Below are positions 8,783-50,700 of a DNA stretch of 64,000 nt, in pieces. The translations under genes were made by a program, and so were the position numbers. Under the pieces are notes generated by a model. The model worked only from the letters and a program-made list of their open reading frames with translations, was not told where the DNA came from and ran no database searches. Positions within the stretch are counted from its first letter, which is position 1, and every line of letters begins with the position of its first letter. The DNA comes from Neelides folsomi (taxonomy: Eukaryota; Arthropoda; Collembola; Neelipleona; Neelidae): contig JAQGBZ010000187.1 of assembly GCA_034687125.1 (NCBI GenBank), forward strand, positions 57,987 to 121,986. The letters run 5' to 3'.

Positions 8783-9909
8783 TTAGAAAAAAATATTTAT
8801 CGTAACAAACCAATAAAGAAAAATGAGCGAACTGCTCAAATAATTTCTTTGAGAAAAATTAAACTTATTTGTCCTTCTTGAGGATCTTTTCCTTCTTGGT
8901 CTTTTGCATTTGCCAGTAATATCTCCTTCAACGTCCATAATAATGGTCGGATCCTTACAGGTGCATCGCCACTCAAATGTCTCGTTATAAGTAATATGAG
9001 TAATTTGTTCAATTTTTTGGGTTTTTTCGTTGAATCGGGCAGTTGCTCCAATCCAATTCACTTCTATAATACGCTTACACCTTGCATGTCTTACGCATTT
9101 GGTTGTGTAAGTGTAATTTTCTAAATAGTAAAGATGGTAAAATATTTTAAGTGTGAATTAAAAGTTTTAGGAATTAAAAATTATTAGTCAATCGTACAAT
9201 AAACAGTATACTTACCCACATAACCATGAACCGATATTTTAATTTTGATTGTTGTACTATTTTCTTCACACTCGCTATAATCTTCTAAATTAGCAGGGAC
9301 CATACATTTCTGTTTTCCTTTATGGAATTTTAACAAAATTGTATAAATACCGTACCATATTTATTATCAAAATATGATTAAAATTGGTTGGATAAAATAC
9401 AACTTGACCCTAATTACATAAGTAAAAACAAATAAAATAGCTATACTTCTATCCCATGAGCCTTTTGCTTCTCCAGCATTGTCACTTGGATCAGCTTCGT
9501 CATCAATATCATTGAAACAATAGCATCTGGTTTTCGCTGCATCATTTATGATCCCTTGTCGTTCGTCCCAAGGAGTATTGTAACACACAAGTCCCATGAG
9601 TCTATTGCAAGTCGTATTGTCCAGATATTCCCATTTCTCTTCCATCGTCAAATTAGTCATTGTCACATTTTTAACAACGTTGATTATTTCATCTTTCAAA
9701 AGACAATCTGTTTCAAAGTACTTCAGATGCCCATGATATTTAAATTCTGGTGGATCTTCTTCAGCTAATGCTAAGCGTTTAGTCTTTTTCAAGACATTGG
9801 CGTCTTTAATTCCCTTTTTAGTAAACGATCTCAACACTCCGTTTGCTAAATGATTAGTTTCAAGAATGGTTAATATTGTAAAATATATGATGAGCATTTG
9901 AGTAATCAT
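8783..9909 (-). CDS. Secreted 12-cysteine protein with GPI-like tail (paralogue A)
   Basis: Exons on the minus strand are 9909-9447, 9317-9216 and 9120-8783, joined phase 1 then phase 1, giving 300 aa. Residues 1-23 form a signal peptide (MITQMLIIYFTILTIL...). Twelve cysteines follow at about 69, 101, 109, 129, 131, 159, 171, 197, 203, 241, 243 and 260, including C-x7-C (TCNRLMGLVC), C-x5-C (CVRHARC) and two C-x-C pairs. The C-terminus is basic, then small residues, then hydrophobic (SSSLIFLYWFVTINIFF), as in a GPI-anchor signal. N-glycosylation sequons include NVT, NLT, NTT and NET. The gene at 12230-13325 has the same cysteine order, so this is a local duplicate pair. The C-x7-C...C-x-C pattern resembles EB-like modules of arthropod and nematode secreted proteins. 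No function is claimed. The exon 2 acceptor (after 9318, AAAG|GA) was chosen because it alone keeps phase 1. Confidence 0.8.
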
Positions 9910-10238
9910 ATTTTTTAAGATTTTATGGTCCTTATAAATGTATTAATTAGTAAGATACACAGGTAGAAAGAATAAATTATCTTTTATCAACTTTGAAAAA
10001 TTATTATAGTTTTATTTAAATTTTGGTAGAATTGGTTTAATTTCTTTGAACAATTAGCAGCAAACATTAATATTTTACACATAAAAATAAACATTTCCTT
10101 GAGAATTTACTCACTACAATTAAGAAAATCTTAAGTAACATAATACAAATAATTTAATGGTTGTTATAAAATAACGCTATTTTAATTAAGATTGTGTTAA
10201 TATAAAAATATTATACATCAGCCTTATATGAACAATAT
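9910..10238. other. Spacer between membrane-protein gene and Cys-rich gene A
   Basis: AT-rich spacer with no coding signal. It must hold the 3' UTR of the membrane-protein gene (ends at 10239, minus) and the promoter of the Cys-rich gene (starts at 9909, minus). Confidence 0.5.
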
Positions 10239-11468
10239 TTAATAAAGTTCACTCAAATGCTGCATTTTTAAAAGGCTTTTCTCAGTTAATATTTGGGCAA
10301 TGGAGTAATGGAAGCAAAAGGTTGCTGCTGTAGTGGAGATTGTGAGAATCTCCCTGGGTGGAATAGGAGAATTATGTCGGTTGAGAGAAAGTCCAAGCAG
10401 AGCCAACAAAAAGAAGGCTCCTCCTGCAACTCCAAAATAATTCTCTTCCTGGGCGCAGATGAACACATTGGCAAAGAAGCTCACAAAAGAAGTGAGTTGA
10501 ACAGAAAGTAAAACCAGTTCAGTTTTGTTCAGGATCCAAGCTATCTAAATAAATATTTTTTAAATCAATTAATTTAATAACGTATTTTATTAAATTTCAT
10601 TGTTTTGAGAATGATTCAAAAATATTATCTTACGAGAGGAATCAAAGAAATAACGAGAAAAATCTAAAAAAGAGTTTTAAACATTAATCAATTTTCACTT
10701 ATCATATAAAAATATCTGTTATTGTAAAAGTACGAGCTCATACAAAAATCAAACTTCAAAATTCGTATTGAAAAATTTGAACTCACACTGCTAAATTCAC
10801 AAAATGTATACGTTTTCGTGTAGATTGAGACCATCTAAAATTGAACAATTAATGTCATTAAAAATAAATGTTCTGAAACAGTAAAAATTTAACTAAAATA
10901 GGGCATATTAAAGTTAAAAATCAACTCACAGATGGATATCCCAAAACTGCTGTAAACCAAAGGAAAGTGTAATAGAGATGTAAAGGATTAGAGATTTTTT
11001 TCTCGTCACTCGCTCTCATATTTCTAACTGAATACATAATACGCCAAACAATAATTAAGGAAATAATTTTAATTTTGTAAAACTTTATTTAACACCAATA
11101 GTTAGGAAAAAGAATTGTGAGCTGAAAATAAATTACTTATTGAGAGTATTTGAAAGCCAAAGGAGAAGATGTAAAAGATGAACCACAAAGACCTGTGAAT
11201 TGTTGGAAAGATCAAAACGGTGATTCCTTGCACTGATTGGGCTGGTATTGGCACTTGTTTTACATTTTTAATCCTCCATAGCGTTTGATTGTATTCCCAT
11301 ACATTGATAATGGCATGAACCGACGCAACTGCTGCCAAGAGCTAATAAAATTCAAACCATAATTAAATATAATTAACATTTATTCTAAATGGTTATAATT
11401 TTGCAAATTTTAACTTTTGTGGTGGCTGAACTTACCTGAAACAAAACTTTAAAGCACGTCCAAATCAT
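10239..11468 (-). CDS. Polytopic membrane protein, family not recognised
   Basis: Exons on the minus strand are 11468-11436, 11341-11137, 11027-10930 and 10544-10239. Junction phases are 0, 1 and 0, and all sites are GT-AG. The product is 213 aa. Hydrophobic segments lie at about residues 5-26, 48-80, 95-117, 121-143 and 148-166, so four or five membrane spans. The C-terminus (about 168-213) is polar. There is no signal peptide apart from the first span. A good acceptor (CTTTAG) lies 3 nt before the ATG, so an upstream, possibly non-coding, exon is likely. The gene lies between the two 12-Cys paralogues on the same strand, so it probably either predates the duplication or moved with it. I do not recognise the family; a MARVEL-like or tetraspan-like protein is possible but the diagnostic residues are not seen. 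Confidence 0.75.
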
Positions 11469-11697
11469 GTCCTAAAGATTGGAATGGAAATTGATTCAAT
11501 ATTTCAATCCAACTTTATTCCTTTTTATTTACTTTTTGTATCTGAATAATTTTGTTTAGTATTCGTAAAATAATTGCTTGGTCTTTGGTTACAAAATTTG
11601 TCTTTATGATTTTAACCACATGTTTAATTTATTAGCAGTGGTTAAAAATGTTCTGGGTGAAAGTTCTTAAAGACAACTCGATTATGTGCAAACAAAT

Positions 11698-11997
11698 GGC
11701 TGAGTTTTACTTTTCCCTCCAGATTTTTTGGCAAATTTTGAAAGTTGTCAAGTTGGCAATTGCCAATGCACGTAAATGATATGGATATTATTTGCCATCA
11801 TGGCAGTTGGCAATTACCATGATGCATTTTATTCAATTTATTACATGTTAGGTTAGGTTATTTGGCGAAAGACGTCATTCCCATTAATTCTAACCTAACC
11901 TAACATATCCAAAAACAATAGAATGCAATCAACTATGAGTCAGAAAGCAATTGCCAAAATTTGCCAAAAAAGCTAGAGGGAAAAGTAAAACTCAGCC
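11698..11997. mobile_element. 300-bp MITE with 9-bp target duplication and TTAGG-like internal arms
   Basis: The ends are inverted repeats of about 40 bp: left GGCTGAGTTTTACTTTTCCC, right its complement ending CTCAGCC. The 9-mer CAAACAAAT directly flanks both sides (11689-11697 and 11998-12006), which is a target site duplication. A 9-bp duplication suits the Mutator-like superfamily. The interior has two further palindromic zones: GGCAATTGCC-type repeats, and an inverted pair of (TTAGG)-like arms (GTTAGGTTAGGTTA and TAACCTAACCTAAC, about 11850-11904). It is non-coding. Confidence 0.88.
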
Positions 11998-12229
11998 CAA
12001 ACAAATATGTGTTATTATAATAAAATAATAACACATTATAAAAAGAAATAAGGCAATTGAACTTAGTAGGTATGTAAAGTAAAAGTATGATATGAGTCTG
12101 GTATGAGTCTTGTATTGTAAAATTTTTTATTAATAAGTTTCACATGTTTATTTTATATTTTTCACTACCAAAATTGTCGTTTATTATGTTGGTTAACAAT
12201 TTAAATAATATTGTCGATTTGCATACATT

Positions 12230-13325
12230 TTAATAATGAACTTCACAAAAGATAAAAATGAGTGATAATAAAATGAGCCATTTATAAACTTGAATCATTG
12301 TGGACGAATCGTCATCTTCATTGTAGCATGTTCCGGTGGGTTCTCTCTCATGGTCCAAAACTTCTGGTGGGAAATTGGATTTGATGTTCTTTTGGCAGAC
12401 ACATTGAGATGTGAATCTTGGCGTTCGAAATTTTTTCCAATAGGTTGTTTTATCAGAACGTCTAAAACCTTTCCACGAATATTGATAAAAGTCAACTTCC
12501 TCACACAGTGCATTTGGGACACATTGAATTGAATGCTTAATAAACATATCTTTGGTTCCTCCTGGGACCATCTGAGTGAAATTCTTTGTCCCATTGGAAG
12601 GTTTTTCAGAATTTCCTTTCCTGCATATGCTCTCATCGCCCAAACCAGCAGGGATAAAACATTTAGAAAATTCTAAAAAATTAAATTAATGGTTATTTTA
12701 TTCGCATTAAATTGCGCCGTGCACATTTCTACCTTAAATGTACCATGCTAATTTAAGCATAATTTTAATTGAAAAATATTTAATTTTAATTGAATTATGA
12801 TAATTATAAGAAACTGACAAAATATATAACAATATAGTAAACTTTAATTGAATCATACCGAACAAAAATATCCCTCTTTTGGTTCCTGATTGAAAAGAGC
12901 AAACGCATTTGTTGACTTCTACGTATTCAAATTCCGCATCTGGTGGATCGTCGCCTTCGAGTTCATCGTCATCTTCAAGAACGCGTACAAAATGACATTC
13001 AAGTCCAAGATTTCTGTCACAGGTAAAGGCGTTGAGATAAAATTGCTTCGAAATATCACTCGCCCAAGAAGAATCATTTTGTACACTTATCACATCAGTT
13101 GCGCTTCATGCAAAAATTAATGTTAAATAACATTATTACTGAAATATTATATTTAATCATATTCACATTTTCCACATTAAAATTTTCAAAATTGCTAATT
13201 AACTTTAAACAATTTTCTTCCCCATAAGTCAACGTTCCATTAAAATTCACTATAACTTGATGAGATTTCAAGAAACAAAAAGCCAGTAAAATGCCAATAT
13301 TTAGCTCTAGCACTTTTTTCATCAC
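12230..13325 (-). CDS. Secreted 12-cysteine protein with GPI-like tail (paralogue B); exon 1/2 join unresolved
   Basis: Exon 1 begins at 13325 (MMKKVLELNIGILLAFCFLK signal peptide) and runs to about 13145-13170. Exon 2 is about 13103-12859 and exon 3 is 12672-12230. The exon 2/3 join is clean (phase 1). Cysteines fall in the same order as in the gene at 8783-9909: one in exon 1, then C-x7-C (CDRNLGLEC), C-x-C, KC, C, C-x5-C (CVPNALC), C-x-C and C, twelve in all. The C-terminus (VYKWLILLSLIFIFCEVHY) is GPI-signal-like. All plausible exon 1 donors are phase 0, while both exon 2 acceptors require phase 2, so the assembled frame is off by one base. This is either a sequence error, a splice site I cannot see, or a recent frameshift. 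Between about 13095 and 13145 the exon 1 frame reads on to a stop. Confidence 0.65.
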
Positions 13326-15969: not shown

Positions 15970-18051
15970 ATGGAATATAGAGAATTATTCAATGAAGGTA
16001 TGTTATGATTAAGACAAATCAAATTATCATAAATCAATACTTTAATGATTTATATATAAAAAATAACTTTTAAGGAGGAGATGAATTTAATGCCGTTAAG
16101 GCTGCTATGAAAGCGGCCACGTTGGCCCATTATGAAGAAGATGGTTCTTATTTAATGATGAGACCCGTCCGGTCGTTCGTTTCAAATATCGCCGGAGCTT
16201 CTAGAGAAGATGTTGAAGAAATGTTAAGAATTGATAGATGGGCGATGGGCGGAGCGATTTTTGGAATGTTTTTTGCCGGTCTCGACGTCGTTTCCGACGT
16301 TGCGGCTTTGTACAATTGGGTTAGAAATGGGTCTCAAATGTGGGTGGCTGGATTTGCCATTTTAGCAGTCTCTTTCTTTGTGAATTCCATGAGGATTCTG
16401 ATGTGAGCAGTTTTCCAAACGACTCCCAAATGCATAAATACCAAATAGAAATAAAGTGGAATTGTGCGACTGAATAATTTACTTTGTTTGTAGGATCAGG
16501 AAGGAAGCGTCTACAGTACGGATATTCTATAGTAAAGTATTAAAGTTTAAAAGTAAAAGAAACAATTCAATACCAGAATTACGGATTGGGGACTCCATCC
16601 CACTTCTTGTAGAATCTCATTGTGGTAGAAATACAGATGGGAAGATGAAGAGACTTCCTAACCAACTCACCTCAAAACCTACATTATTAGAAGAAGCTAT
16701 TCCTAACACCGATTCAACAAAATTTATTGGACTTTTTCTCCTGTCGGCTATGGCCCCGTCCATTTTTATGTATTAAACCCATTTTATTTTAAATTTCATA
16801 TAATATAAAAGATTTCTTACCTTCAAGTACTAAATATTTAAAAAAAATTATAGAGATTTTGACGCGTGATTAATATGGTAATAAGTACTAATAAGTTTAA
16901 ATATTTGAAATATTAAAGATACTATATAATATTAGACTGTTGAAGTATCTTCGTAAACGTAACTTTTGTGCATTGTTTTATATATAAATTAACCCGGTTT
17001 GGTTTCAGGAATGCAATCTGGTTAATGGGAACAAAGAAAATAAATAGTTTGATCCAGAAGAAACAAACATTTGAAGACGAAGACGCTTTAGTTCAACTTT
17101 ACGCTCGAAGCTCATTTCTGTATTTTATACAGCTCCAAGCAGCTGACGCTTGTAAATTAGAATTACTAATGGAAGCAATTCCTCAATTACTTTTAAGAAT
17201 TTTACCAGTTTTGTCAATATTTCTCAAGTTGGGATTTTCGCTCGCAGTTGATAAAATAGGTTAAAAACATTAATTAAATGAGATAAAACAAAGAGCAAAT
17301 AAAGACTCAATTTGTTGATTTAATTAAAAGGTATTGAAGAAGTTCAGCAATTGACTGTGTCGTTTCTCTCAATCGGTTATTTAATGGCAGCTGCTATGCT
17401 CAAAAAGCAAGAGCTTGCCCATTACGAAGGGAAAAACAGAAGAACTAGTCAAAGTTATCCAAGAATATTAAAACTCCTTTGTATTATCGGGCATATTCTG
17501 ACAATAGGTGATTTGAAAATTATAAACTTTTGTAAAGTCATTTAAATAATTATATAAATTCAAAGTTATTTAATTAAACGTAAATCTTTTTAGATAGTTA
17601 TTGCACATCCGTTTTTGTTAATGATTTTATGTTTAATTATGTTTTAGGGACAATTATCATTGGAGCTGGACTCGTTTTCCTTAGTTCAATTCTCACGGGG
17701 CTTCTTGTGTTCTTAATTTGCAATTGTGTAGTGATGTCTTCTGGAAATGAGGGCTATTCTTGGGAATCTCGGCTTTTCCAAGGATGGACCACGGCCTTTT
17801 CTCCATTGGAATGGTGCAAGAGAAGAGAGCTTTGTTTGCGAATCATCATGCGGATGTTTTTTCTCCGAGGGCTGGGACTTTCACTTGTTCTTCTCACCGC
17901 CTCCCTTCAACTCCTCAAGATTTTCCCACTCGTCAACGTCGCCGCTGTGACTTTCGGCGTTCTTTCAGTTCACATCTTAGGGGATTCAATTCTCATTGCA
18001 GAAAGACTTATGAGTCCCAAAAAAATCAATTGGCTTGTTCAATACATATAA
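15970..18051 (+). CDS. XK-related (XKR family) membrane protein
   Basis: Six exons: 15970-15997, 16075-16402, 16494-16769, 17009-17259, 17331-17507 and 17648-18051, giving 487 aa. Junction phases are 1, 2, 2, 1 and 1, all GT-AG. The first exon is tiny (MEYRELFNE). Transmembrane segments include about residues 68-85 (GAIFGMFFAGLDVVSDVAA) and 97-118, then a hydrophilic loop (about 120-195), a span near 197-215, and several more to the end. Two features are characteristic of XK/XKR proteins: the Asp-Val-x-Ser-Asp pattern in the first span, and the helix LQAADACKLELLMEAIPQLL, where family members have a Glu-Ala-x-Pro-Gln-Leu-Leu core. The family includes plasma-membrane lipid scramblases and the XK blood-group protein. 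Whether this member scrambles lipid cannot be told from sequence, and no caspase site is evident. A poly(A) signal AATAAA lies at 18255-18260. Confidence 0.85.
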
Positions 18052-20534
18052 TTCCATTTTCTTATGTTACCATTTTTATTCAATTTGTTCGAATTTAATC
18101 ATTGTTACCTTCATGTTTGCTATATCTTACACCTTGAGTTATTAATGTAAATGATACATGAAATCAATTTGTTGAATTTAAACTTTGATTTAAAAGAGAA
18201 GGATTTTTTATCCACTACTACAATTCTCACTGTGTCGTATTATATAATTTAAACAATAAAAATATCAAGAATACAAAAGTACGTAAAGTAATTTATCATT
18301 TTTAATTGTTAATTATTTAACCTCAAAGGCAAAGGCCCTTTCTAAAACTTCCTGTTAGATAACCCATTAAAAGATTTGGGAGGAATTTAATATATTGTAT
18401 CACTTTGAACATTACTATTTTAAAATGTATCATAATTCATGTATCATAATCACGCAAAATATTCATCCCATGACCAAGCGCATTGTGTTTCTTTATCGAA
18501 AAGATAAAGCTAAGCCGAACAAATGATTCATATACAATCAGCTAATTGTTGTTAAATAACGAATACAAAAAATAGTAAATCACTCACAACTTAAATAACA
18601 ATACATAATGTCACAATTCACTAACTAGAAAAATAGCTCGAGCTTAAAGTTACAAATTATACAAGGGAGAGCTGATTATACGATTTAGGTAAATCACCTG
18701 CCGACCGCTTCAGTAAGGCCATTGGGGTTAATCACCATTTCCATTTCCTCTCAATATGCATTTATGAAAGGATGAAAAGAATTTAGATTCAAAATATGTA
18801 ATTTCAATTAACATTTTCTTTGATTAAGATTGTTAAGTTCATTTTTATTCAGGTTTATTTATCAAGGATCATGGAGTGTTAATTCCATTGCACGAGAATT
18901 TGGTCAAGTTAAGAAGAATGAAGACCTTCTTTGATATAATATTTATGTCTACATATATATTTAGTATATTTATACAATTAATTATTAAATTCCTTACTTA
19001 CATAAGATTCAATAGAAAATATACAAGTTCCGTACGAGACAACGACAAATATTCACAAGACACTGACCGACACTCAAAAAAGAATACATTTTAGAACACA
19101 GGGGTTGACATAATTGGTGTGTACATTAATTATTTGTAATTTAAGTATTTATAAATACAAATAGGATATTATATTACAAAAGTCGTGTGGGATTGTTTTA
19201 ACATGCTTGATGCATTAAAATCTTTGAATTTTAAATGATGAGATGAAAAGAGCGACTTTGGTTTATTTACTCTCAACCTAACTACCAGTCTGAAAATGGC
19301 ATTAAATACCAGTGTAAGTATGAAAGTTGTTTCCTTCATAAATCAATAGTTTTGATCTTTATAAAGACCTTTTACATGTGGAACTCTATAAGTCGTGAGA
19401 TTATGTCAGGATATAAATATTTATATTAAGAGTATATAGTACGAGTATGGTATTGCTATATTCTTATGTAACTTTATACATTGCAATGTACATGCCTTTA
19501 TTTCTTTTGTACTTAAACTCAATTCTACATTTTAGGTAAATGTCATTTAAGGTATGTAAAGGATAAAACTACTCTCTAGTAAGTATCTTTTACATATTAT
19601 GTTGGTAGGTAAGTACCATATTTATATGTAAGTGTAATACGAGTATAATAATATACAGAAATTGTTTATAAAAACGAGCATATTCTATTCATAATTTCTA
19701 TATTCAGTACGAGTATTATGTATGTTATACCATATTTTATAGATGCATTTCGTACATATCACTATATAAATACTTAAATTCGGGTATTGTCGCTTACGTG
19801 AAAGGTTTCATTAAAATTATTTTTAGTCATTCTTTCATTTGGTCTCCTATTTCTCCTCTGGTTAAGTCATAAGGCCCATGCGGTGCCTAGTTCCTACATC
19901 AGTAAATTCCTCACATTTTAGTAATCATTTCACAATGTGGATGATCAATCTCTTATCACCACTATTTTGATATATTGGATTTAATCGAAGTTTGCGCACT
20001 GGAATTCCTTCATTTGCTTCTACCCACTTTTAGGAATTTGACTTAAATAAGATCAAGGTAGTGGGTCAAGAATTTGAGATGTTTTGAAAGATATGCAAGA
20101 TACTATTACTACCTTTTATCCATACTTCATATTTCTATAATAGGATAAGAGATATTATCTTAAAGATGATGTTCTAGCTCATATTAAAAATCTTATACGT
20201 TAAAAACTTGTGGAATAATAAGTATGATGTGTGAATGAGTTTCTCCCTTTGTTTGAGTCTTGTAAATCCATACCCGAGGTCCGAGGAGCAGGTACGTTGA
20301 GGTACATACGTGCAGTGAATATTTAGAAAGATCTGAATTCCTCACATTCCTTACAAAGTATAGGGTTATGATTTTATATCTACCTTACAAGTTCAGTTTG
20401 CAAGTAACAAGATAGTTTCTATTAAGTAAGTGAAAGTTGAGTGGTTCACGCCTCATTTAAGAAAGTTGCCTGTAAAAGGATCACGGTGGAATGACGAGGA
20501 ATGCAAGGGAGAAAATAATGGGAAAGAATGAGCG
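18052..20534. other. Intergenic region 3' of XKR
   Basis: Begins with the XKR 3' UTR (AATAAA at 18255). The rest is AT-rich, with repeated short words such as TACGAGTA (about 19440, 19635, 19708), and has no coding exon I can support. The far end is the 3' flank of the minus-strand microprotein gene. Confidence 0.5.
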
Positions 20535-23009
20535 TCAGACAGCTTGCTCTTCCTCTACAGGATTTTCGGCTGCATACTTGGCGGCGGCTTCGGCGGCCAA
20601 TTTTTTCTCTGCCAGTTCAATCTTCATTGCAGCCTGCTCCACTTTCCACACTTCGCTCACCTTCAAAAACCCCAAAAAATTATGCTAACACGAGATTCAA
20701 CATTGGATTGAATTCAAATTGATTCACAGATACTTACATAAGAACTGACATTATTTAAGTATTATAAGTATAACTAAGTTCTTAGGTACCTTATTAAGTG
20801 TTACTGTGCTACACAAAATCTTACTGATGCCTGATACCTAACATTACCTATATGCGTTTCTCGACTTCAACATTCACACTTTTATCCATTAATCATTCAC
20901 ATTTATTCATTAATTTTCTTCAAATGTCAAAAAGAGCATTATAATAATAAGAGAACCTTCGATCAAACTTTGCCTCAATTAAACAGCAGTTAAATTAATG
21001 TTCATAATCAACATGACTCGCTCACATAAGAATTACCTAAGTCAGAGAAAAACAAATGCAAGGATTGTATGGTATATTATTAGTTCTTCCTTGTACAATT
21101 CTGCGAAAATATGGTTTAGTTGTTTGAATGAGTAAGTTCAAATTAATCGAGCTGAATTATCTTGTTCAATTCTGTATAGTAATTTGCACCTGTAAATTCA
21201 AGTCACGTTATAGCAATATCTTAAATGTACGTCTTGAGTTTGAATCAATTTCCTATACGGATATGGAAGCTCGAGAATTTCCACATAATTACTCCGTTTT
21301 GTTATACCTTCAAACTTCCTCAAGTTGTCCTTCATCTAAGTAATCGTAAGTATATCGCTAGCTCGCATGTCTATTTAGCATTACATTTATTTTCGAGTCC
21401 TGGCTGATATAAGCCCTATTAAGGAAATGGGTTCTTCATTTACTTAAACTTTGTAGAGTGTAGAGTACTTAATATCACTTTCCGCAACTAAATAGCCATA
21501 TTCATAAAATAGAATGTAAATGCATACGTAATATAATCGAATATAAACAATGTCTAAAATACTTATTTCCACTTTTAATGTTAAGTTTAGTACACGACTT
21601 AAAATAGACATTTATTATGTGATACATCACTGTAAATAGAGGTTTAACGATATGGTGTTTGCTCAAGGAATGTGATAAAGTAAATAAAGTCAGACATACG
21701 AACGATATGGTATAACTATTTGCGCTATTCCACAACCTACATACCTAGACATTTATTGTACTTTAAGAATGAAGTTCATGAGGAGGATGTGAGCAAAGTG
21801 TCAAGGTCTTCTTTCTTTTAATACTTTCTCAAGTTTTTCAAAAAGAGTCAACACACATTTAAGTAATATCTAAAAAATTTATGAAAAAGTTCAAGTAGTT
21901 TAGACATCTACCAGCATACTTACTTAAGCATAGAGATTAATTATTGTGCATCTACCAGCATAAAATCATAAATAACGTAAACATGCTTAAAATGTTTTAC
22001 TAATAGTATTTGAGTTATAGGTATAACTAAACCTAAGTATGTATACATAAATATATAATTTAAACACATAAATAATTAAAGAATCATCAAGCATAGAAGT
22101 TCTGAGAAGTTTGGAGTTATGCTTTTATAAGTTTTTCCTTTCTTCAAATTACTAAGAATGAAATGGTTTTTAATCGAAGGAAAAGAAGAAAGGATGAAGG
22201 ATTAATGGTTAAACTGTATAAGAAAGAAATGTTGGAATGGATATAGATTTCCAGTCAGCCCTAATGCCTAATATTTTTACCAAATGAGAATGCGCATTCA
22301 GATTCAATTGCTTGTTTGAGAAACTTTGGCTAATTTTTATTGTTCAATTTAAGACTTGATTTGATTAATTCCAATTATAAAGATAAAATCCAAATTTAGC
22401 AATTAAATCTTCAAAGTTTTTTTAAAATTACACAGACATTGACGCAAAGGAGTAATTAACATAAAATTGCATAAAATACAAAGTTAGTTCCATATTTAGT
22501 TATTCAAATAAGCACTGACAAACTCTTTTTGATTTAAACATGTGTGAAACTCATAGGGACCAAGGGTTGGAGGGAATGAATCTCATGCTTTATTCATTCA
22601 AAGCAAACCTAATGGAGGAAGTCTCGAAAATCTGGCAGATTCACAGAATTGAGTTCCTCTAATAAAAGGTCCATATAGGACCTGGGCCTTATAAATTATC
22701 TTTACTATATTATGTATTACATCTTCCAGTCTGGCATCCCGCAAGTGAGAATGTTAATAATCCAAGCATAAATTTTTATTCTATTAGCCATTTGCGGGAC
22801 AGTGAAATGTGAGAAGGAATTCATAAAAGAACCTATTGGAACCTCGGGAACAAACACATGGGTTTCTCCTATTGAACTATGAGGGTGTGAAGAGTGAAGG
22901 TGCGGCTTACCTTAATGCCAAAAATGAAGACACCGACGAGAATGGCAAAGAAAATGAGAGCAATGAAGGAAGCGAGGACAATTGGGCCCGCTTGGATGGG
23001 CTTACTCAT
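20535..23009 (-). CDS. 74-aa single-pass membrane microprotein
   Basis: Exon 1 is 23009-22911 and exon 2 is 20660-20535 on the minus strand. They are joined in phase 0 across a 2.25-kb intron (AAG|GTAAGC ... TTTTTGAAG|GTG). The product starts MSKPIQAG and has one strongly hydrophobic helix at about residues 9-32 (IVLASFIALIFFAILVGVFI). A charged amphipathic helix (about 34-64, with AAMKIELAEKKLAAEAAAKY) and an acidic end (NPVEEEQAV) follow. Both exons are much more GC-rich than the surrounding sequence, and third positions are mostly C or G. A TATAAAG sits about 137 bp upstream of the start codon. The architecture is that of a small integral membrane regulatory protein, such as the micropeptides that act on membrane pumps or channels, but no family was recognised. 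Both exons are too short to stand out in a conventional long-frame scan. Confidence 0.78.
20661..22910 (-). other. Intron of the microprotein gene
   Basis: A 2250-bp AT-rich intron. No nested gene was recognised. Short frames at 20491-21407 and 21502-21735 are judged to be chance or shadows. Confidence 0.55.
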
Positions 23010-23145
23010 CTTTGGACCCGCCGGAGAAGCATGCCGCAAGTAGTCGTCGGGACTCCCTCCTCTTTCCGCATATTTTGACGCAGTCTCTGCCTACACTCCT
23101 CGATTCCACAAAACTCCCGACTCTAAATAAAACAGAACGAAGGGG

Positions 23146-23152
23146 CTTTATA
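23146..23152 (-). promoter_or_regulatory. Putative TATA box of the microprotein gene
   Basis: On the minus strand the sequence CACTATAAAGCCCC occurs here. It would place a start site near 23115-23120 and give a 5' UTR of about 110 nt. The GC-rich stretch from 23010 to 23120 is then the 5' UTR. Confidence 0.5.
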
Positions 23153-24656
23153 GTGAGCCAAAATGCTTCACCTACTAAATACTATACAAAAGCCTGTATC
23201 CCTACGTAAATATTATGCACTGGATCTGGCTAGTAACAAAGGCTACCTTCTCTGTACGGGTATACCTTCTTCAATTTGAGTATTATTATCATAATTCAGC
23301 CTTTTCTATACATGGTCTGAATTGAAGTATCAAATGTACGAGATTTTCAACCTCGGATATCAGATACCTTTCCAGACATTGGCCTTCTTATAAGGCTTTT
23401 ATTCAAGTGCAAACTTCAAAGAGCCCATGAATAGAATTTCCTCTTTTCTTATCTCTTCGCTCTTCGCGAAATGTAGTTTGCTTTTTTAAGTATTTTAAAG
23501 GTGCCTGCAGCAGCATTTTGTTTATTACATAAAATACACTTTACATTGATAGTGAAATTGAGGATGGAACAAATGGAAATTTTGTATACGGTGAAAATGC
23601 TATTAAAAATGTTTAGGCATGTGCACAATGTATGAAAATACTTAATGTTAGTTAGATGGGAAAAAAACTTGTAAAGAGTGGATTTACTTGGGATCAGAAA
23701 ATGATTGAAAGATTCGAAATCATTCCTGATTCATTCAACCATTCAAGCATTCCATTTAGAAAAAAAAATAAAACACATTATAAGTTTATAACAGATCAAT
23801 ATTTGTAAGGAAATGGTTATGAAATGTTTTGAGCATGTATTTAAAAGGCATTACTTTAGGATCACAATGAAATAAAAATGGGATGAGTTGGAGTAAAATT
23901 TTATTGCTTTAACTTGTGACCATCTGTAGAAGAATTGGAAAGATGAAACAAAATGTTTTTCCGGTTGATCGCAAAGGTAAAGGCCTTATAAAATAACTTT
24001 CATCTTTGCTTTATATAGATATATTTATGTACCATATAGTGACGTTCCGGGAGATGAGTCTATGTATGTATGGAATGAATTTGTTGGCACATGGCTTGAC
24101 CCACGGCTCTCGCTTCACACGAATGAATAATTCATTGATCGCATATACGGGAATACCTTACTGCAGCTACCAGATTTCTTTTATGTCCCTTATGATCATT
24201 ATAACTGGGTTATAATAAGAGTAACATTGGAAGTATTTTTATCAATAGTTTAAAATAGCTTTATTCAATTAAATTCAATGTATGGTAATTGGTAATTGCA
24301 AATATCAGTAACTAATTGCAAGAACTTATACAATCTGTATTTAAATTCTACAATAATAATTTAGATAATATAATGAGTATCAAATATCTTTGGAAAACTT
24401 AGGAATGGATCGCGTTTAAGATAAAAATAATTATACTTAATTATTTATTGATTCTAATTGTAAGAGGTTTGAGTAATTAAAATTGTATACGACCTATCAA
24501 TATTAAAAGCTACCTTATAAAATTAAATTAACTCTTTGAATATTTGTACGGTAAGGTGAAATCTATAGCTGAAATTGAAACCATATGGTAAAGCGTAAAA
24601 AATAAATACTGAATTAAAGTGAAGCTGTGAAACAAACGTATTTGTATGCTTAATAG
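23153..24656. other. Spacer upstream of the microprotein gene
   Basis: AT-rich, with no coding exon or RNA gene recognised. It presumably contains upstream control elements of the minus-strand microprotein gene and the 3' flank of the CAP-G gene. Confidence 0.45.
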
Positions 24657-25116
24657 TAAGCTTCCGCATGGATTGAATTTTGGCGATCCAATCCGTATCC
24701 GTATCCAATCCATTTACATGGATTGGATATTGGTCTGATCCAATCCGCCAATATTTATATGGATTGGATGGATGGTCAATCCGTATCCGTTTATATGGAT
24801 TGGATCCATATCAAATCCAATCAGTATCCATTTCATCCATATACACTTATGAATACATTATTTTGTTTGGATTCCTTAATTAAATTAAAAAATACAGAAA
24901 ATAAAGTCATAATATTAGTCTTCTTCAGTAATATTAATTAAATATTCAATTAAAAACACAAAATGTTGTATATTTTTTGAGTTAATAATGATTTTCTTAT
25001 ATTATTTGCTCGGATTTTAATATTTAGTCAATCCATTTAATGCATATGGATATCCATATGGATCGACGCCCAATCCGCATCCATATCCAATCCGATCCAA
25101 TCCATGCGAAACCTTA
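24657..25116. mobile_element. hAT-like MITE, 460 bp, 8-bp target duplication
   Basis: The left end TAAGCTTCCGCATGGATTG is matched in inverse at the right end (complement TAAGGTTTCGCATGGATTG), a terminal inverted repeat of about 19 bp. The 8-mer CTTAATAG directly flanks both sides (24649-24656 and 25117-25124). An 8-bp duplication is diagnostic of the hAT superfamily group. Each end region is filled with many short copies of ATCCAATCC / GGATTGGAT in both orientations, which makes the ends highly self-complementary. The core (about 24850-25010) is AT-rich and non-coding. It lies just 3' of the CAP-G stop codon and may be inside its 3' UTR. Confidence 0.88.
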
Positions 25117-25183
25117 CTTAATAGGCAATTAATAAATACGTTGTACGTAGTACTTAAACAAATTAGACCGATAACGTGGGAAA

Positions 25184-28100
25184 TTAGACTTCTTGAAATT
25201 CGAGTAAGCTCTGCTCAAGCTCGCGATTATCCTGAAATACACAAACAAAACTGAGTACTCACACACTCTTTATAATTGTTTCAATAAATTCCTTACATTT
25301 TCTTCAAGTTGATTCGGAGTTGGTAGCTCCACGTTCGATTGGTTCTCTTCATCAGAAAGTAAATTCCCGTCTTGTGGAGGTTCTTCTGGAACAATATTTT
25401 CCAGACTCACTTGGTAAATTCTTGATGTATCAACAAGCACCATTGGCTTAAATCCGCTTTTGAAAAGACTTCTCTTGAATCTTGTAAACCTCTTCTGAAG
25501 TTCTTTCTTGCAGTTTCTGAGATGAATCTGTTACGAAAATTATACAATTTGTCAAAAAATTAATATTAATATATAATATACTTGTATTATTTAGTTAAAG
25601 ACAATGTTTATAGTATTTTCAATTTCACTTACTGTTCCACCATATGAGTCTTCAATAAGAGATTCAACTTTCTTGATGATAACCTGAGTCATACATTGGA
25701 ACTTTTGTATTTCTCCTGGTGATGTGAAGGTCAACATTTCGTAAATGCAAAAAAGCTCACAAACCCATTCATTTTCAATGTGAGTGAAAATGAGTTTAAG
25801 AACTTGATACATAATTTGAGGATGGAATGTCTATAAAGAGAATAAAACTTATGGTTAGAGTTTGTAAAATCTCTTGGGTAAGAATTTTTAACCAAAATTA
25901 ATTAGCCTGATAAATAACAATTAAAATATTTATTTAACCATGAAATTAGAAATTTTTAGTAAACTACCTCATAGTTCCCTGGATAAATCGTAACAAGGGC
26001 AGCTGGATGCAAAGCCCTTTCCACGATCATCAATAATTTCACGAAAAAAGTTGTTTTATAGAGCTCGTTCTTAAAGATTGCATTTTTTGCCCTCCACACA
26101 GATGCATCATCTTTCAGACTTTCAAGTAAAATTCTCAAGCTGTCAAATATTCGTCAAATAATTAGATAACAATTAACATTTTAAAAATAATATTGATAAT
26201 GTCAAACCTTTCAATAAGACCATTGATCATAATATTGGCATTTTCGGCGCTCTTCCGCACATAATGAGTAACAAAGTTTTCACACATGGATTTCACATTC
26301 GAGAATTCTAAAATTATCATATTATTATGATCATAATGTAGATTTACGTGATGTTATGTTGATGAAAATTACATAATAGCGTCAATAGCGATTTTACCAT
26401 TGTAGGGATCGGTCCAATAAAGGAGTACATCCGAAATTGTTTCTGGTTGGGTAAATCTGCCACACATGAGCAATTTCATGATTGTTTTGATGATCAACTC
26501 TTGACGTTGCTGTTTGTATAAATTCTGAAAAGTTTATAGATTTTACTATTTTAATCGATTGTTTTTAATGTATTATGGAAATAATAAAAATGACATATAC
26601 CACTGTGGACGCATCGTTGTTGATTTTGGCAATTTCATATTTTTTAAGTATCTCGACAACCGCATGTTCAATTTCTTTATCAGATTTGACTTCACCATTT
26701 GAAAGAGAATCAAAAGGAAGAATGCGTGCTAAGAATTAGAAAAATTAAATTAAAACAAAAAAACCAATTTGAAAAATTGAAAAACGACTGAGGCATGGGT
26801 AATAAAAAGCATGAAATAACCTCAGCAAATAATTAAATAATTGCCGAAGTCGTCGCAAATTCTTCAAGTATTTTACAACTAATATAGTTAAATTCAATCA
26901 TGGATAAGTTAAAATTTCTTATTTTATTAACCGGAGATTCTACTTTATAATTTCACCTAAGGACTGATGGTAATATCTGACATTCGAACCACACGCTTCC
27001 CTATGCTTCCCCATGTTACATAATAGAGAACACATACTTAAGCGTCAGACGCTTATATCATAACCCAGCCTAATGTGTCCTGGATGTTTTATGGTGACAT
27101 ACAAGTCCTTCAAATTCTCCATTAGAACATATCGTGTAAATTACCTTTGAGATGATTTACGCAGACGCTGAAGAGCGTTGATCATACTATAGTTAAACAT
27201 TAATCAGATATCAGAACACAAAACTCGCTTACCGAGGAGCTTATTACTGATACATAAAGATGTGTTTGCGAAATTTGATACAATTAAAATTTTATATATG
27301 TTCTAATTTGCGACGACCTCGGAAATTATTTAATCATTTGTTGAGGTTATTTCATGCTTTTTATTATCCATGCCTCAGTCGTTTTTCAATTTTTCAAGTT
27401 GGTTTTATTTCATCATTTTTAATCGAAAGGAGTAGATGCATTGTTTGACTTAATAAGTGATTTTTAAAATGGGATAATAATAGATATTAAAAAACAATTA
27501 GAAGATTGTATACATCTCGACAGTGACTGCAATTCACGTAGTTAAAGTTTCAAAGTTATCAAAATCATAAGTTAATCCTTTTAAAAAGTTTAACGCATTT
27601 GCCAATCGATTTAAAATTATTTAATATTCAAAAAAAGAAATTATTTTTTTAAAAAATAGGATATTTATTATTTATGTTTCTAATGGATTTTGAACTTTTT
27701 CTTTTATGGTTAATCATGGTTAATTAATTAACCATTATGAAATTTAAAATCTCTACCCCATTACGCACTGCACATTAAACTCCGTCGATTGATGTATTAT
27801 TTGGTCTGATCGGTTAAGGCGTTTAGAAGGAGATAGCTTCCAAAGAAAACGCAGACAGACAGACATACATACAGGTCAAACGCATACTCCTTTCGGTAAA
27901 ACCTAAGTCGTAAAAATCTCAAATTAAATTAAAAAAATTAAAACACGTTTACCATCTGTAACTTGTGGCACATTTGAACCAATTAAAATTAACTGGGAAA
28001 AGGGATATTGACAAAAAATGTCAGCAATCCCTTTGAAAGCGTAACATTTGACAGCCTCAACATCACTTTCAACAGCCTTTAAATAATAAAAAATAAAATG

Positions 28101-31100
28101 TAAATAAATAAAAGTAAAGCACAAATACAGCATTATAAAATTATAATCATTAATATGAATTAAGAGAAAGCTGTTAGAATAAAAAAATTAATCGTAACTG
28201 TTAATAGAACAAGAAGAACGTCTCGTGCATAACATCGATCCAATAACGCCATTAATGTTAAAAACTCAATGGTGTAACAACGAAACAAGTCTTCTCCTTT
28301 CTATGAAAGTTAATAGCAAATCAATTAAAATAAAACACCAAATTGGTATTATTATATTATTACTGTCAAATTATAAAATCCTTACAATTAAAAACTGCAT
28401 GGCGTATTTTTCATAAAAGTTTCTTATAATTGGTGGAATTCGCCTGCCATAGACAAGAAAGGCTTTCATAATCACGATGCAACGACAAATAACAGCATTG
28501 TCCATCTGCTCCAAATAATTTGTACTGTCGAATTCTGGAATTCTTTCATCAGAAATTCTCTTTTCTATCTGAGGGTTTATAATAAGCGATTCGAGCCTTT
28601 TGTGCATTAATTCATTCTGTTCCTTTGCTGGACTCTGAGAATTCTGAAGAGTATTATTATTTGGAGGAATGATAGGTTGACAATTTGCAATTTTCCAGTC
28701 GTTTAAGTTCAGGTCTTCCATCTTCGATGTACCGTCTCTAACGGATCGAAATTTGGTCAAAGTTTCTTTAAGAAGCAACAAGTGCTGGTGACGAGTGACA
28801 AATTCTTTTTCATCTTCAAACTCTTTTTCGGAGTCTACTTGTTGGAGTTTGTTAATTTCAAGCATAAGCTTGGCCATCTATAATAGTACAAACCAAAAAT
28901 AAGCAAAACTTTATTTAAGTATTAATTGAAAGATTATTTTAATTCTATTTAATGTATTAAAAGATTAAAACTAAATTACCGCTTCTTTAAACTGCGTTTC
29001 AGAATACGAAGGCTTTCTTGCAAAGCTTTGAGACATCACTGAAGAAGCTTGACTAAAAAGCGTTGTGTTCACTGACTGTTGGGTTGGTGGAATTTGAGTT
29101 TCAACTGTGGGTGGGACTTCTTCGTCCACCTCCATTACATCATCGACTTTTCGACCTGCTGGCGAAGGAGGATTTACCCTTGGACTCATTGGAAAATCAA
29201 AATATTCAAGATGACGAGGTTCGAGAAGTTCCTTGAGTACATCCGTTATGATGAGTTCGAAATTGATTGGATCAATCAACTGAAGTGCTTGGACAGCGGT
29301 TGCAAGAAGAGAAATCTCGTCCATAATCTCATTTTTCAATACCTCCACAATTACTTTCTTTATCTTCTTACTAAAGTATAAAGCATTGTTATAAATAAAG
29401 AGTTAGTAATAAATACAAAAGAATATAAATTTTATTAAGTAAAATAAATCGAAAACAGCAGATAATTAACTTGTATGATTTATACCTATTTCCTTCTTCA
29501 AAAGAATAAAATGGGATGAGCTGAAAAGCAATTGCAAGACATTCAACATTTGTTGCTAATTCTTCACGACCTTGAAAGGTAGCTTCTTTATTCTCGTTTA
29601 TTGCTCCTTCGGTAATCCTAAAATGACCACAACGTTAGACAAAGCCTATCTATCTACTTATTTGTAAAAGAGTATCTATTCACAAGAATTTATTACTTCA
29701 TAAAATATTCAGGAACTTTTTCTTGGGACGGAAGCATTAGACGAAGCGTCGTGTGCTGATTTTTAAACTTATTGAGCAAATACATCCAAATATAACATTG
29801 CTCAATATCCAACTTGTCCACTGGAATCAATCGATCTTCATTGAGGAATGAAATATCAACTTTGGCAAATGTCGCATCGCTATCATCACTAAATTGATAA
29901 ATTAAAATAAAATTATGTTGAAATGAAATGGAATTTAGCATTTTTAATTTAATTATTTGATAATATAATTAGCTAAAGTTAGTACAAACTTATAATTTAT
30001 AGTATATGTATTAGTATTACAGATAAAGCGAATCCAAAATCTTTTTGTACAGATTGTCCTCGTTTGTCATTTGTGCCATCAAAACGTCCAATTTTCCATC
30101 AAATTTTTGAATCCAACTTGGAAAGATTTCTTGACGAAAAATATCTAACATAAAAATATTGAAAATCACATAATATGACTAATATGCTAATTATATTACA
30201 AAATATTTGTTTTTTGCAAGATAATATCCCTACTTAATAAAATATCGGTCTCTGTCGGTAATCAGCTCACTTTCCCGTCACAATACTCCATTCGGGGGTT
30301 TCTGATTAATACCTAAATGTCCGGGCCTACCCGGGGACGAAACTAACGGCGAGATATTTTGGAAATGATGTTCGGTTAATTAATTAAGCACGAATAACCA
30401 CAAATTTAACCAACTTTCCAGCTAAGAAATTCAAAACTTTACCAAATATTTTGGAATTATATTTAAGAAACAGTCCAGTTTGTTTACTATTAATCCAGTT
30501 GCCAATGGAGGGGAAATTAAGCAATGTGATTCCGGATGATTTAATTTAATCTGCCCTCACTGTTTTAATAAGAACTATTAGTCGGCGGATTACGGAAATA
30601 GACTGATATTTTATTAAGGTTGATAAACCAGCAATGGACCCCTCTCCCGACGAATTGGTTATTTCTATCCATACTATTAAATGATAAATATATCTATTAA
30701 AGTGTATCATATTTTTATATTATTATTATTTTAATGTTGGAAATCCTAGATATATTTACCATTAATAGTATTGATAGAAATAACCAACCCGTCGGGAGAC
30801 GGGTCCATTGCTGGTAATAAATAAAATATTGATTTCAAAGTTACTATTTAAAAATAATTGTAATCTTTTAAATCATCAATTTTACCAGGATGAAGTAGAA
30901 ATTGCTTAAAAATGCTCTCCATTTTCTTCAATTCTAAAACTGCCACAATGTCTCTGTTTACCAATTCTTTGATGGCCAATGTTCTCACTGCGGGTGAGGG
31001 ATCAAAAGTTGCCCGAACGAAAAATTTAGTTTTCATTGTTGGTCTCAATGACAAAAAGGAAACAATTTGAGCTCGAATTTCAGAGTTTCGTTCGCATACC

Positions 31101-32136
31101 ATTACAGCTTTCAAGTACTTTAAAGCTAATGAAATTGGAATAAATAAATACGTTTTAAAAAAGGTATTATTTATGTAACGTTTAAAAAAATAAAGATTAC
31201 TTACTTTGAACAATATTTTCGTGATCTAAAAAGTACTTCAAGCATTTGATGGCAACAATTCGCACAGGCGGTGATTCATCCTGTAAGTTTCAGAGTTTTA
31301 GACTTACAGATTACATGCATTTATTGACAGGATTAGTAATTATGTTATATTTTAAAATGAAATTACGTAAATCATACACCGATGTAATTCCTAAGTAATT
31401 TTTATCTTACACTGATTCGAAAGTTTAAGGCAGAGAGTAATTTTTCTCTAACACCTCTGTGATCTCTCCATTTTAGATATGCAGGATCCTCGAACTTGTT
31501 TTCTAACACTTCAAGCAAGATCTGCAAAACATTTAGCCGAACTTCCGATCTGTTGTCTCTGATGACCTTTTAATACATAAAATACATGATGTAAAATATC
31601 GCATTATTATATTACATAAGATAATTTCATAATTAATTCCATATTGAAATTACAAGAGTGACAAGTTGAAGAACGCTCATAAAGAATGGTTGACAGCTGC
31701 CATTCTTAATATCCTCCGGAAGATCAGTGTGGGCCATGTCATCAATGGTTCCAAGGACCAAAGCCAGTTTTTTGAAGAATAAAATCATATTTTTGGAATA
31801 GATTGAAGGGCTTGTCAGCCTTTCATCGAGAGCTGTCAACATCAGTCGCCATAAGCAGGATCCAAATTGTGCACGGAATATCTTGGCTTGCTGCGTAAAA
31901 AGATTAAACAAAAGTTAAATAAAATGAACTTTTTAATCAATAATTTAAATTTTGGGATATTACAAACATACCTTAATAGTTCTGTTGTTATTCTGGTCAT
32001 AGTAGAGGAGCTTGACTTTTTGGATCAGTTTGCGATTTTTTGACGAATATTGACTTTTGAGTAAATATTCTCGCAATTTAATGAGGATTTCCCTATTTGA
32101 CAAAGTAAAAGCAGTAGCAGGTTCGTTATCGGCCAT
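25184..32136 (-). CDS. NCAPG: Condensin I subunit CAP-G (condensin complex subunit 3)
   Basis: Eighteen exons on the minus strand: 32136-31972, 31890-31654, 31566-31411, 31280-31205, 31125-30886, 30144-30021, 29888-29697, 29617-29486, 29370-28980, 28877-28386, 28076-27953, 26728-26601, 26524-26398, 26307-26208, 26139-25968, 25830-25633, 25527-25297 and 25231-25184. Every junction agrees in phase, and the sum is 1110 aa against about 1015 in human. It is HEAT-repeat-like throughout (for example PAVRTLAIKELV, near residues 260-270). The segment EDRLIPVDKLDIEQCYIW (about 350-367) followed by LPSQEKVPEYF matches a hallmark region of vertebrate CAP-G. ISDVLLYWTDPYN (about 850-861) matches the ILLWYNP motif of the C-terminal Cnd3 domain. 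Residues about 505-565 form a Pro/Ser/Thr linker. The acidic tail is short. CAP-G pairs with CAP-D2 and CAP-H in mitotic chromosome condensation. The start ATG gives a charged N-terminus with no upstream in-frame evidence. Confidence 0.93.
26757..27410. mobile_element. Foldback element with ~100-bp inverted arms in CAP-G intron
   Basis: The left arm, about 26759-26863, contains AAAAACGACTGAGGCATGGG. The right arm, about 27306-27407, is its inverted copy (ATCCATGCCTCAGTCGTTTT). Over about 100 bp the arms differ at only a handful of positions, so insertion is fairly recent. The core of about 440 bp is AT-rich and shows no transposase. Target duplications were not resolved. Confidence 0.75.
27740..27915. 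repeat. Possible retroelement tail with CAGA/CATA microsatellite
   Basis: GGTCTGATCGGTTAAGGCG (about 27802-27820) resembles a tRNA-like box A start as found in SINEs. It is followed by CAGACAGACAGACATACATA (about 27852-27871), a pattern common at the 3' ends of RTE-like non-LTR elements. It lies in CAP-G intron 11 beside the foldback element. Weak evidence; simple sequence could explain it. Confidence 0.3.
30232..30622. mobile_element. Inverted-repeat element in CAP-G intron
   Basis: ACTTAATAAAATATCGGTCT at 30232-30251 is inverted at 30600-30620 (AGACTGATATTTTATTAAGG), and the similarity extends inward (GGTAATC / GGATTAC). The segment is GC-richer than the surrounding intron and non-coding. 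Probably a MITE of about 390 bp; no duplication could be assigned because it abuts another foldback element. Confidence 0.6.
30628..30814. mobile_element. 187-bp foldback element
   Basis: Arms 30628-30683 and 30760-30814 are near-perfect inverted copies about 55 bp long, starting CCAGCAATGGACCC and ending GGGTCCATTGCTGG. A short AT-rich loop separates them. Transcribed RNA from this CAP-G intron would form a long hairpin. It adjoins the element at 30232-30622, so one may be nested in the other. Confidence 0.75.
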
Positions 32137-47700: not shown

Positions 47701-50700
47701 GAAATCTTAATAAACTGATGACAGTTGGATACTTGAAAAATATCTTTATAATCCAAATTTTGCATAAGGTGTTAAATAAAATTGATATGTTTTATTATGC
47801 AAATATACAAAATTCCTCGATATTTTCTTTTGTATAAGTTTTGTACTATATTGGTATATGGCTTATTTTACTTTTAACTTGACTGAAATTAAAAAGCATG
47901 ATGTTTTTTCCTAATTATAAAATTTAAATTATTCATAGAAGAATGAGAAATCGAAAGTGAGATAAGGGAGGATTGGGATCAACGGATGGCGGTGTGGCTA
48001 ATGAGGAAAGTTATGTGAGACGCCACTTGTGTCTCTCCAATGATAAGACCGAGTTTCGTGGTCAGGGCAAGGACCTACTACACATCTCTCCAAATGTATT
48101 CCTCGAGGAGACTCTCATTGTCTCTCCCATTTTGATTGATCATTAATAAGGAGCTCATTGAGCATCGCGGAGTATTTACCCCTTTCTCTCCCCATTCACT
48201 TCCCTTCGTCCTCATTCGGCCGCTGGTCAACGAGCCCGCACACAGCAGATAGGGAATCCCCTCGATATTAATTCATTAAATGAGTGACTGATCCACGGGA
48301 GGAGATAGGAACAGATAGGGAACCAAATTGGACACAGTGCTTTGGGCCAATTGAAATCCAAATGATACTTTCAAATCTTCAGTATGTGTTCGATTTGGAA
48401 CATTGGAATTGGAAGAAAGAGAGAGATAGATACCAATTGATAGAGAGGAATCAAAGTGCGTGTGTGGGGGAGAATCGGAAGCCTGATTGAGAGTCACGCT
48501 CCTCTCCCTTTCTACGAATTCTTTCTTTCGATGGCCCATTCTTATCTTATGATTCATCTTGTCCGGGTGATCTTTTGAGACAAAGAAGCCGCCACGCGAT
48601 TCACTCGCTTCTCATTCTTAATTCCAATTTGTTTACGGATCTTCTTTTCATCTTTCCTTCCTTATTGAGATTCGTGGAATTAGTCGTTTTATTACTAACT
48701 GCCAAATTGTAAAACTGTTTATCTCACGCGTTTTTATTTAGACGCATTCATATTATTTTAATTAAAAGGTGTTTTGTGGTGTTTCTTAGAAAATTCCAAA
48801 GGATTTCTTCATACTCTAGGAATTCTAGAAAGATGCTCATCTGAATTGTTCATTTTAGCACAATTGCATTTTCTCGATCATATTGAAAACAGATTAAAAT
48901 AATTTCCCGATTCACTTTTTTTATAATAATTAAATTGTATAAATATCTCCAATATATCAAAACAGAAAAATCGTTCTCATATGCAATAATTTTGACCATG
49001 TACCATATAAATTTATCATTCTGCCATCAATCACCTTATGCTAAAATTATTAATTACTTACCCATAAATTCTACATTCAAAAAGGCCGAATAATTGGAGA
49101 ATGCATAATGTAAATAATGTAAAATTTTGTCATTGTGAGGTTCAAAAACGTGAGAGATGGTTGAGGGTACTCCACGTATTGACTTTTGAGGGCTCCTGTG
49201 AGTTCATTGACATTCCGAATGAACTTTCCCAAATCACTTGTGCGAATGTTGGTCAGGTACGGCCGGCTCATTCCTCCGGTGGAAATATTATTCATACACG
49301 GTGTATTTGCCTTCTCTTGAGAGAGGCACGTCGGCCGGGGGCCTTTTTAATGCCTCAAGTAAAGGAGGAGGATCTTGAAAAGTCTAAACTTAACTCTCGA
49401 CAACCAAGTGACCTTATTTCCATTCTTATCATTTCTCTTCCCCATCTGTCTCCATTCAAACTTTCATCTTCATTCCCCCTTCTCTATTAGAGCTTCTTCT
49501 CATTAAAATCCCATTATCTCACCATCTCACCCCTTTCTTTTTATTTGCATACAACTTCATTAAAATACGCTTTATTTACATACATGTAAATTCTTATTTA
49601 ATAACAAATGGTCCCATATGTAAGTACATACCAACCGCCATACACGTACTTTACATATACAAGTACATACAAAACTTATTGTTAGACTACATATGGCCGT
49701 GCGTATAAGTACTTAAAAAATGAAATTCACAAAGAGATTTTTTATAATGAATTTCATTCCATAATGATTGAAATTCAAGTACAATTTAATGATGTTCAAT
49801 AGCGAGTGCCGCCAAGTTAAAATATGGTGTTAATATAAGCCTAAACAAGCCCTTGTTACATTATTATGGACAATGATATAAAAAAGAAAAAATTGGCTAA
49901 AGTGAGGAATGTCAAAATACATAGAATCTTGAACTTGTCAAATACAAATATAAAAAAATGAAGGAGTTGACGTGTGGACGAAGATGGTAACGGGTTGATG
50001 AAGCTGTTGAATGAGAGGGAGATTGGCATGACGAGAGAGACGCGCTGTTTGAGGAGAGCCACATATGCATTTTTAATGAGCCATCTCGGGATGAAGACAA
50101 TGAGGAGTTTGGGCCGCAGTGTTTTTAATGCTATGCAGGTGCGACGTCTCGTATTTAACCGTCACAATTTCCACGGCGTCAATACTTTACTCCGCTCTTC
50201 TATCTATGTCACTGCCCATAATTATGACCCACACAATCAGACTCCCTTTCAATAATAATATTTCCATATGGGCCACATCCAACTTTCTTCTATCGGTCCC
50301 AATGAAAATCATTCAACCGGAGTATTATTATTACCCATCTCACTATCAATCACTTTCCACATTATTTATTCATTTCTCCTGTCAATATGCACATCAATTA
50401 TCAATTTCACTCTCTTCAATGTGAAGGAAATGATGATCAGGATCGTCATTAAAATGGGGAATTACCATTTTTAAAATTCTCTTTGTATGCTAAGTAGTTT
50501 TGAAGATGATTTAAAGAGTGTTGTTTTATTTCAGAAATGGTCGGCTGGCCTGATCGTCACCTTGTCCCTCATAGCTTCCGGTTCCAGTACGGGTTTAAGA
50601 AGATGGAGGAGAGATGCTCCATTGACGGGATATTCTGCCCCACAACCCTCTAATTCTTACGGCGCTCCAGCTCCTTCTTATGGACCTCCTCCTGCAGCGT

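Follow-up and report, generated by a model that had tools for sequence, protein, structure and literature searches.

On the minus strand of a 64,000-nucleotide stretch of Neelides folsomi DNA (the window), we found a two-exon gene for a membrane microprotein that is very likely to be real, because codon use is coding-like above chance in both exons, exon shuffles included. The whole reading, that this real gene gives a single-pass membrane microprotein, most likely a small accessory or adaptor subunit, is in our judgment evenly balanced between right and wrong. The original prediction of two minus-strand frames (33 and 41 codons) with a phase-0 junction was confirmed by translation across the 2,250-base intron. 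The split small ORF that it described, with MSKPIQAG followed by one membrane helix, was likewise recovered by translation, coding-like codons and hydropathy (maximum of 3.02 over 19 residues). Open frames, phase, splice dinucleotides, codon signal and hydropathy were read directly from the sequence, and we infer transcription, splicing and translation.

Exon 1 (99 bases) translates into 33 residues with the N-terminus MSKPIQAG, and exon 2 (126 bases) into 41 residues followed by a stop, so that the predicted joined product has 74 residues with a phase-0 junction (Table 1). The frames had been called GC-rich, which is true against their surroundings (G+C of 46% in exon 1 and 52% in exon 2, vs. 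31% in the intron and 34% in the window) and does not hold beyond that comparison. Upstream of its ATG, the frame of exon 1 meets a stop before any other in-frame ATG, and the start is therefore well defined if exon 1 is the first coding exon. The intron begins at the donor AAG/GTAAGC and ends at the acceptor TTTTTGGGGTTTTTGAAG/GTG. With generic splice matrices not built from this genome, the donor was near-consensus (11 of 6098 GT sites as good, its own site counted), and the acceptor was of a weak AAG type, equaled or bettered by 345 of the 6431 AG sites in the window. A second phase-0 acceptor (TTAG, at 20684) lies 24 bases upstream and scores 0.0 vs. 2.1; the exon 2 acceptor is thus weak and not unique, and use of the one at 20684 would give a product of 82 residues. 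No YTNAY-like branch site was found within 60 bases of the exon 2 acceptor, and no internal coding exon above the cut was found in the intron or in 23010-25200. Ten variants of the poly(A) signal were sought in the 335 bases downstream, where TATAAA was the only one present; the nearest downstream AATAAA is at 19502.

Table 1. Positions of the predicted microprotein gene and of its flanking elements in the window.
Feature	Position	Strand	Basis
Coding exon 1 (start codon, 8-residue N-terminus, membrane helix; residues 1-33)	22911..23009	minus	Translation, codon score, hydropathy
Coding exon 2 (charged Ala/Lys/Glu segment, acidic tail; residues 34-74 and stop)	20535..20660	minus	Translation, codon score
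Phase-0 GT-AG intron, 2,250 bases	20661..22910	minus	Donor 7.2, acceptor 2.1 (generic matrices)
Possible 8-codon in-frame extension of exon 2 (82-aa product)	20661..20684	minus	Alternative acceptor at 20684, open frame
TATAAAG, possible core promoter	23146..23152	minus	143 bases upstream of ATG
Pyrimidine-rich stretch ending in AG, possible acceptor of a 5′-UTR exon that would begin at 23122	23123..23140	minus	Acceptor score 2.96
Upstream ORF, 21 codons	23006..23071	minus	ATGs at 23071 and 23032, one frame

We measured coding potential with codon scores trained on 19 of 30 kinase loci fetched from the same genome; the 11 loci with in-frame stops in the match were dropped, and further kinase matches beyond these 30 were left out. 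The in-frame score was 13.8 bits for exon 1 and 27.5 bits for exon 2, and the other five frames ranged from -22.9 to 12.3 bits and from -11.3 to 9.4 bits, respectively. The 12.3 bits belong to the reverse strand of exon 1; this exon by itself would thus leave the strand undecided. The microprotein averages 0.56 bits per codon, vs. 0.32 in the kinase training set. Among stop-free nearby noncoding segments of equal length, which overlap one another and share regions with the background estimate, the score was reached by 11 of 3320 for exon 1 and by 0 of 2008 for exon 2. The codon score favors G+C-rich codons, and a dinucleotide shuffle of each exon in place is therefore the sharper control: shuffles that were open and scored as high numbered 2 of 5000 for exon 1 (without the ATG) and 0 of 5000 for exon 2. 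When the exons were shuffled in pairs, both were open in 392 of 5000 cases, and the joint score was reached by none of these.

The two-exon model as a whole scored 50.6 bits, and the best model among 180 dinucleotide-shuffled strands scored 15.7 (best of 120 from 18.5-25.2 kb, 13.8; best of 60 from 31.5-44 kb, 15.7), although shuffling a whole strand evens out G+C and is an easier test than the exon shuffles. The best two-exon model in the real 31.5-44 kb sequence scored 19.2. In a scan of the whole window for nonoverlapping models with a coding score of at least 25, the microprotein model was second of five on the minus strand, where the first is antisense to a long low-complexity ORF, and three of the seven plus-strand models outscored it; if the repeat-rich end of the window is set aside, no other two-exon model on the minus strand scores better. 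These results bear on the reading that there is no gene here, and that the two frames either stay open by chance in an AT-rich region or are left over from other genes. The weak acceptor, the upstream ATGs, the empty homologue searches described below and the nearly equal reverse strand of exon 1 all speak for it; however, neither the strand shuffles nor, with the two exceptions in exon 1, the exon shuffles reproduced the scores, and both exons show the codon signal in one joined frame, which leaves this reading unlikely.

The 5′ region is less tidy than the exons. A TATAAAG had been noted at the right distance upstream; the motif is present and its distance usable, but the expected transcription start coincides with an acceptor-like site, and two other ATGs come before that of the microprotein. 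Given the window's own frequencies, 0.024 copies of TATAAAG are expected in 140 bases (0.20 for TATAAA alone). The acceptor-like stretch at the expected start outscores the acceptor of exon 2 (2.96 vs. 2.1). The two upstream ATGs would need bypass or reinitiation, and they weaken the picture of a tidy gene. The stop of the upstream ORF overlaps the microprotein start codon as ATGA, an arrangement that might allow reinitiation. Upstream ORFs of this kind are common.

Several other features of the window can be described from their reading frames. On the plus strand, 57308-61942 holds an open frame of 1544 residues, Gly/Tyr/Pro-rich and then Asn/Gln/His-rich, of low complexity; together with 50475-50861 and 56657-57061, which carry repeats of the GYGAP/SYGPP type, it suggests a cluster of genes for structural proteins of the cuticle type. 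On the minus strand, short ORFs with scattered cysteines lie within 8783-13105 (8783-9157, 9367-9942, 12230-12685 and 12734-13105); they are perhaps a small secreted or membrane-anchored family, and the two that were tested had no Pfam match. A multi-exon membrane protein gene at 16074-18051 (plus), which resembles one for an XK-related protein, gave no Pfam match above the cut-off for four ORF pieces, and the same was true of eight ORF pieces from the multi-exon gene at 25270-31225 (minus), which resembles one for a HEAT protein of the condensin CAP-G type. Pfam scans of 20 neighboring ORF pieces gave four matches altogether, all under the curated cut-offs. The stretch 24520-25260 is repeat-like by eye and open on both strands (NPYPYPIHLHG/RIGSDQYPIH), and the one repeat that Tandem Repeats Finder reported within 24400-25400 is a short 17-base array at 25070-25104. 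Scanning the window for Rfam families and tRNAs found nothing.

The predicted protein has one strong membrane helix, at about residues 9-33 (roughly 24 residues). Residues 34-74 carry a net charge of -4, and the composition of the charged segment within them (roughly 33 residues) makes a helix probable. In this segment the hydrophobic moment (P = 0.39), the heptad pattern (P = 0.68) and the number of E-K pairs at i+3/i+4 (5 vs. a shuffle mean of 3.4, P = 0.22) were all within the range of shuffled sequences, and a coiled coil is therefore not supported. On an ideal helix the two small-xxx-small pairs of the membrane segment, A13/A17 and A22/G26, point in opposite directions, which ruled out a single face formed by the small residues.

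We searched for homologues in the 75.1-Mb assembly (840 contigs) and in several collections. The 74 residues matched no Pfam family at E up to 10, and a PDB search at E up to 10 gave a single match, ATP synthase subunit e (9b0x_T, E = 0.16); each exon alone matched nothing in the PDB. The original prediction recognized no family, and the Pfam and PDB searches likewise established none. In the protein search of its own genome the microprotein matched its own two exons only, and a 211-base stretch around exon 1 had a single match in the assembly. Pattern searches of viral and prokaryotic genome collections returned 59 and 405 matches, respectively, none of them confirmed. A full-text search with the N-terminal peptide and six other peptides found no paper, and since it covered open-access texts only, it does not show that the protein is unreported. 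Because no homologue was found, selection on the protein is unproven. As a side observation, TGA is read as Trp on the contig that carries mitochondrial COX1, where the match holds 11 TGA, 25 ATA and 0 ATG codons. The frames on this contig, as we read them, place ND2 before COX1, and COX2 and ATP6 after it, which is the ancestral arthropod order.

The PDB match raises the question of whether the microprotein could have arisen as a paralogue of mitochondrial ATP synthase subunit e and then diverged, with AxxxG replacing GxxxG in the contacts of ATP synthase dimers. GxxxG in the membrane helix is the motif of subunit e; it is absent from the 74 residues, which have AxxxG at 22-26. The alignment to 9b0x_T covers residues 3-65, with P4 and P9 meeting its two prolines and A22xxxG26 meeting its GxxxG, and its score was reached by 0 of 2000 segment-preserving shuffles (1 of 2000 in a second set); a profile of mammalian subunit e and 9b0x gave a score reached by 8 of 2000 shuffles. 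However, 9b0x_T is the top scorer selected from 177,635 sequences, which biases all values that involve it, and no test that leaves it out succeeds (mammalian subunit e: P = 0.087; subunit e exon of the same genome: P = 0.29; profile of the two: reached by 1216 of 2000 shuffles). With 9b0x and the genome's own exon both added to the mammalian sequence, the score was reached by 130 of 2000 shuffles, and on the mammal and 9b0x profile the held-out true subunit e of the genome scored 23.7 bits vs. 8.1 for the microprotein. That true subunit e exon was the only match in a genome-wide search with PF05680 (42.9 bits, on another contig, C424, 48922-49092, minus strand). Its best E value against PDB chains was only 0.027 (phmmer, single-sequence), so a distant relation is compatible with weak PDB values, and the family profile is the deciding test. 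The microprotein and subunit e share a length class, two prolines before the helix, an aligned small-xxx-small pair and a charged tail, but the microprotein lacks a Pfam match and GxxxG, and the genome has a separate true subunit e. We therefore dropped the identification with subunit e itself, and regard a diverged paralogue as very unlikely.

We also considered that the microprotein might be the genome's orthologue of Purriato/NDUFA3, a subunit of respiratory complex I. Drosophila Purriato (CG9034) is described in PMC10036370 as a protostome microprotein, of a family found across Protostomia, and CG9034 has been identified as the NDUFA3 subunit of complex I (PMC9977279, PMC10036122). The two proteins are alike in size class (77 residues in Purriato) and in having a single membrane helix, and searches of the genome with Purriato and PF14987 returned no matches and thus no other NDUFA3; these searches had no positive control in a related genome, so their emptiness does not show that NDUFA3 is absent. 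In sequence the two are unlike: alignment with the Drosophila chain 8esw_A3 scored 20 vs. a shuffle mean of 21.9 (P = 0.71), and the C-terminal stretch of the fly protein has no counterpart in the microprotein. On these two grounds the identity was rejected, and we consider it extremely improbable.

The combination of one membrane helix and a charged tail had been compared with micropeptides that regulate ion pumps and channels. Pfam includes an FXYD family. A SERCA regulin-like or FXYD-like regulator would fit the small size and the predicted single pass, but the microprotein has no Pfam family at E up to 10, and the comparison with FXYD-type regulators was made through this Pfam scan only. 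The comparison of layouts fails for the SERCA regulins (phospholamban, sarcolipin, myoregulin and their kin), which are likewise single-pass: as PMC8396278 describes them, they are tail-anchored, with an N-terminal cytoplasmic part before a membrane helix that lies at or toward the C-terminus, whereas the order of elements in the microprotein is reversed, its helix lying at about 9-33 of 74 residues. We therefore regard a pump or channel regulator as quite unlikely. Stannin/Hemotin (88 residues) has the order predicted for the microprotein, an N-terminal membrane helix and then a C-terminal helix, according to PMC4807881; the likeness is one of layout alone, and the 74 residues have no Pfam match.

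The closest class is a broad one. Short CDSs of about 70-80 residues often have one membrane helix (32% of the annotated ones, PMC11674832), and transmembrane and mitochondrial motifs are overrepresented among Drosophila microproteins (PMC11475943). With 74 coding-like codons (below 100) and a membrane helix by hydropathy, the microprotein resembles the Drosophila short-CDS (shCDS/sCDS) transmembrane microproteins in its length of 70-80 residues, its one membrane helix and its ordinary coding composition, and it is probably an ordinary member of this well-known class, a likeness in which its own transcription unit is given by the model only and no named member is matched in sequence. The gene had been described as overlooked; the count of 887 short CDSs in D. 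melanogaster (PMC11674832) means that a protein of 74 residues is not automatically missed.

Topology, tail helicity, location and partner are predictions drawn from these features. In the mechanism that we propose, eight N-terminal residues would precede the membrane helix, and the charged segment and acidic tail would be exposed on the opposite membrane side. The helix may use one of its small-residue pairs to pack against a larger membrane partner or to self-associate, and the charged part could then touch an extrinsic part of the partner. The role of accessory or adaptor subunit is the most likely one by analogy, an expectation drawn from the order of elements, which is like that of Stannin/Hemotin and the reverse of that of the SERCA regulins. 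Several small respiratory subunits likewise carry the membrane helix N-terminally and a second helix toward the C-terminus. The single likeliest location is the mitochondrial inner membrane, which we propose tentatively, and an endomembrane site of the Stannin/Hemotin type comes next and is somewhat more doubtful still. It is also conceivable, if quite improbable, that this gene is the first member of an undescribed arthropod family whose proteins act as membrane accessory subunits; in its boldest form this would be a second e-like subunit that packs at ATP synthase dimers via AxxxG and by which a tissue could alter the shape of its cristae.

On its own the microprotein gene changes no known principle. 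If it is expressed, it adds one more gene to a large and mostly uncharacterized class of membrane microproteins, and it offers a clean case for testing whether so small a family is traceable across arthropods.
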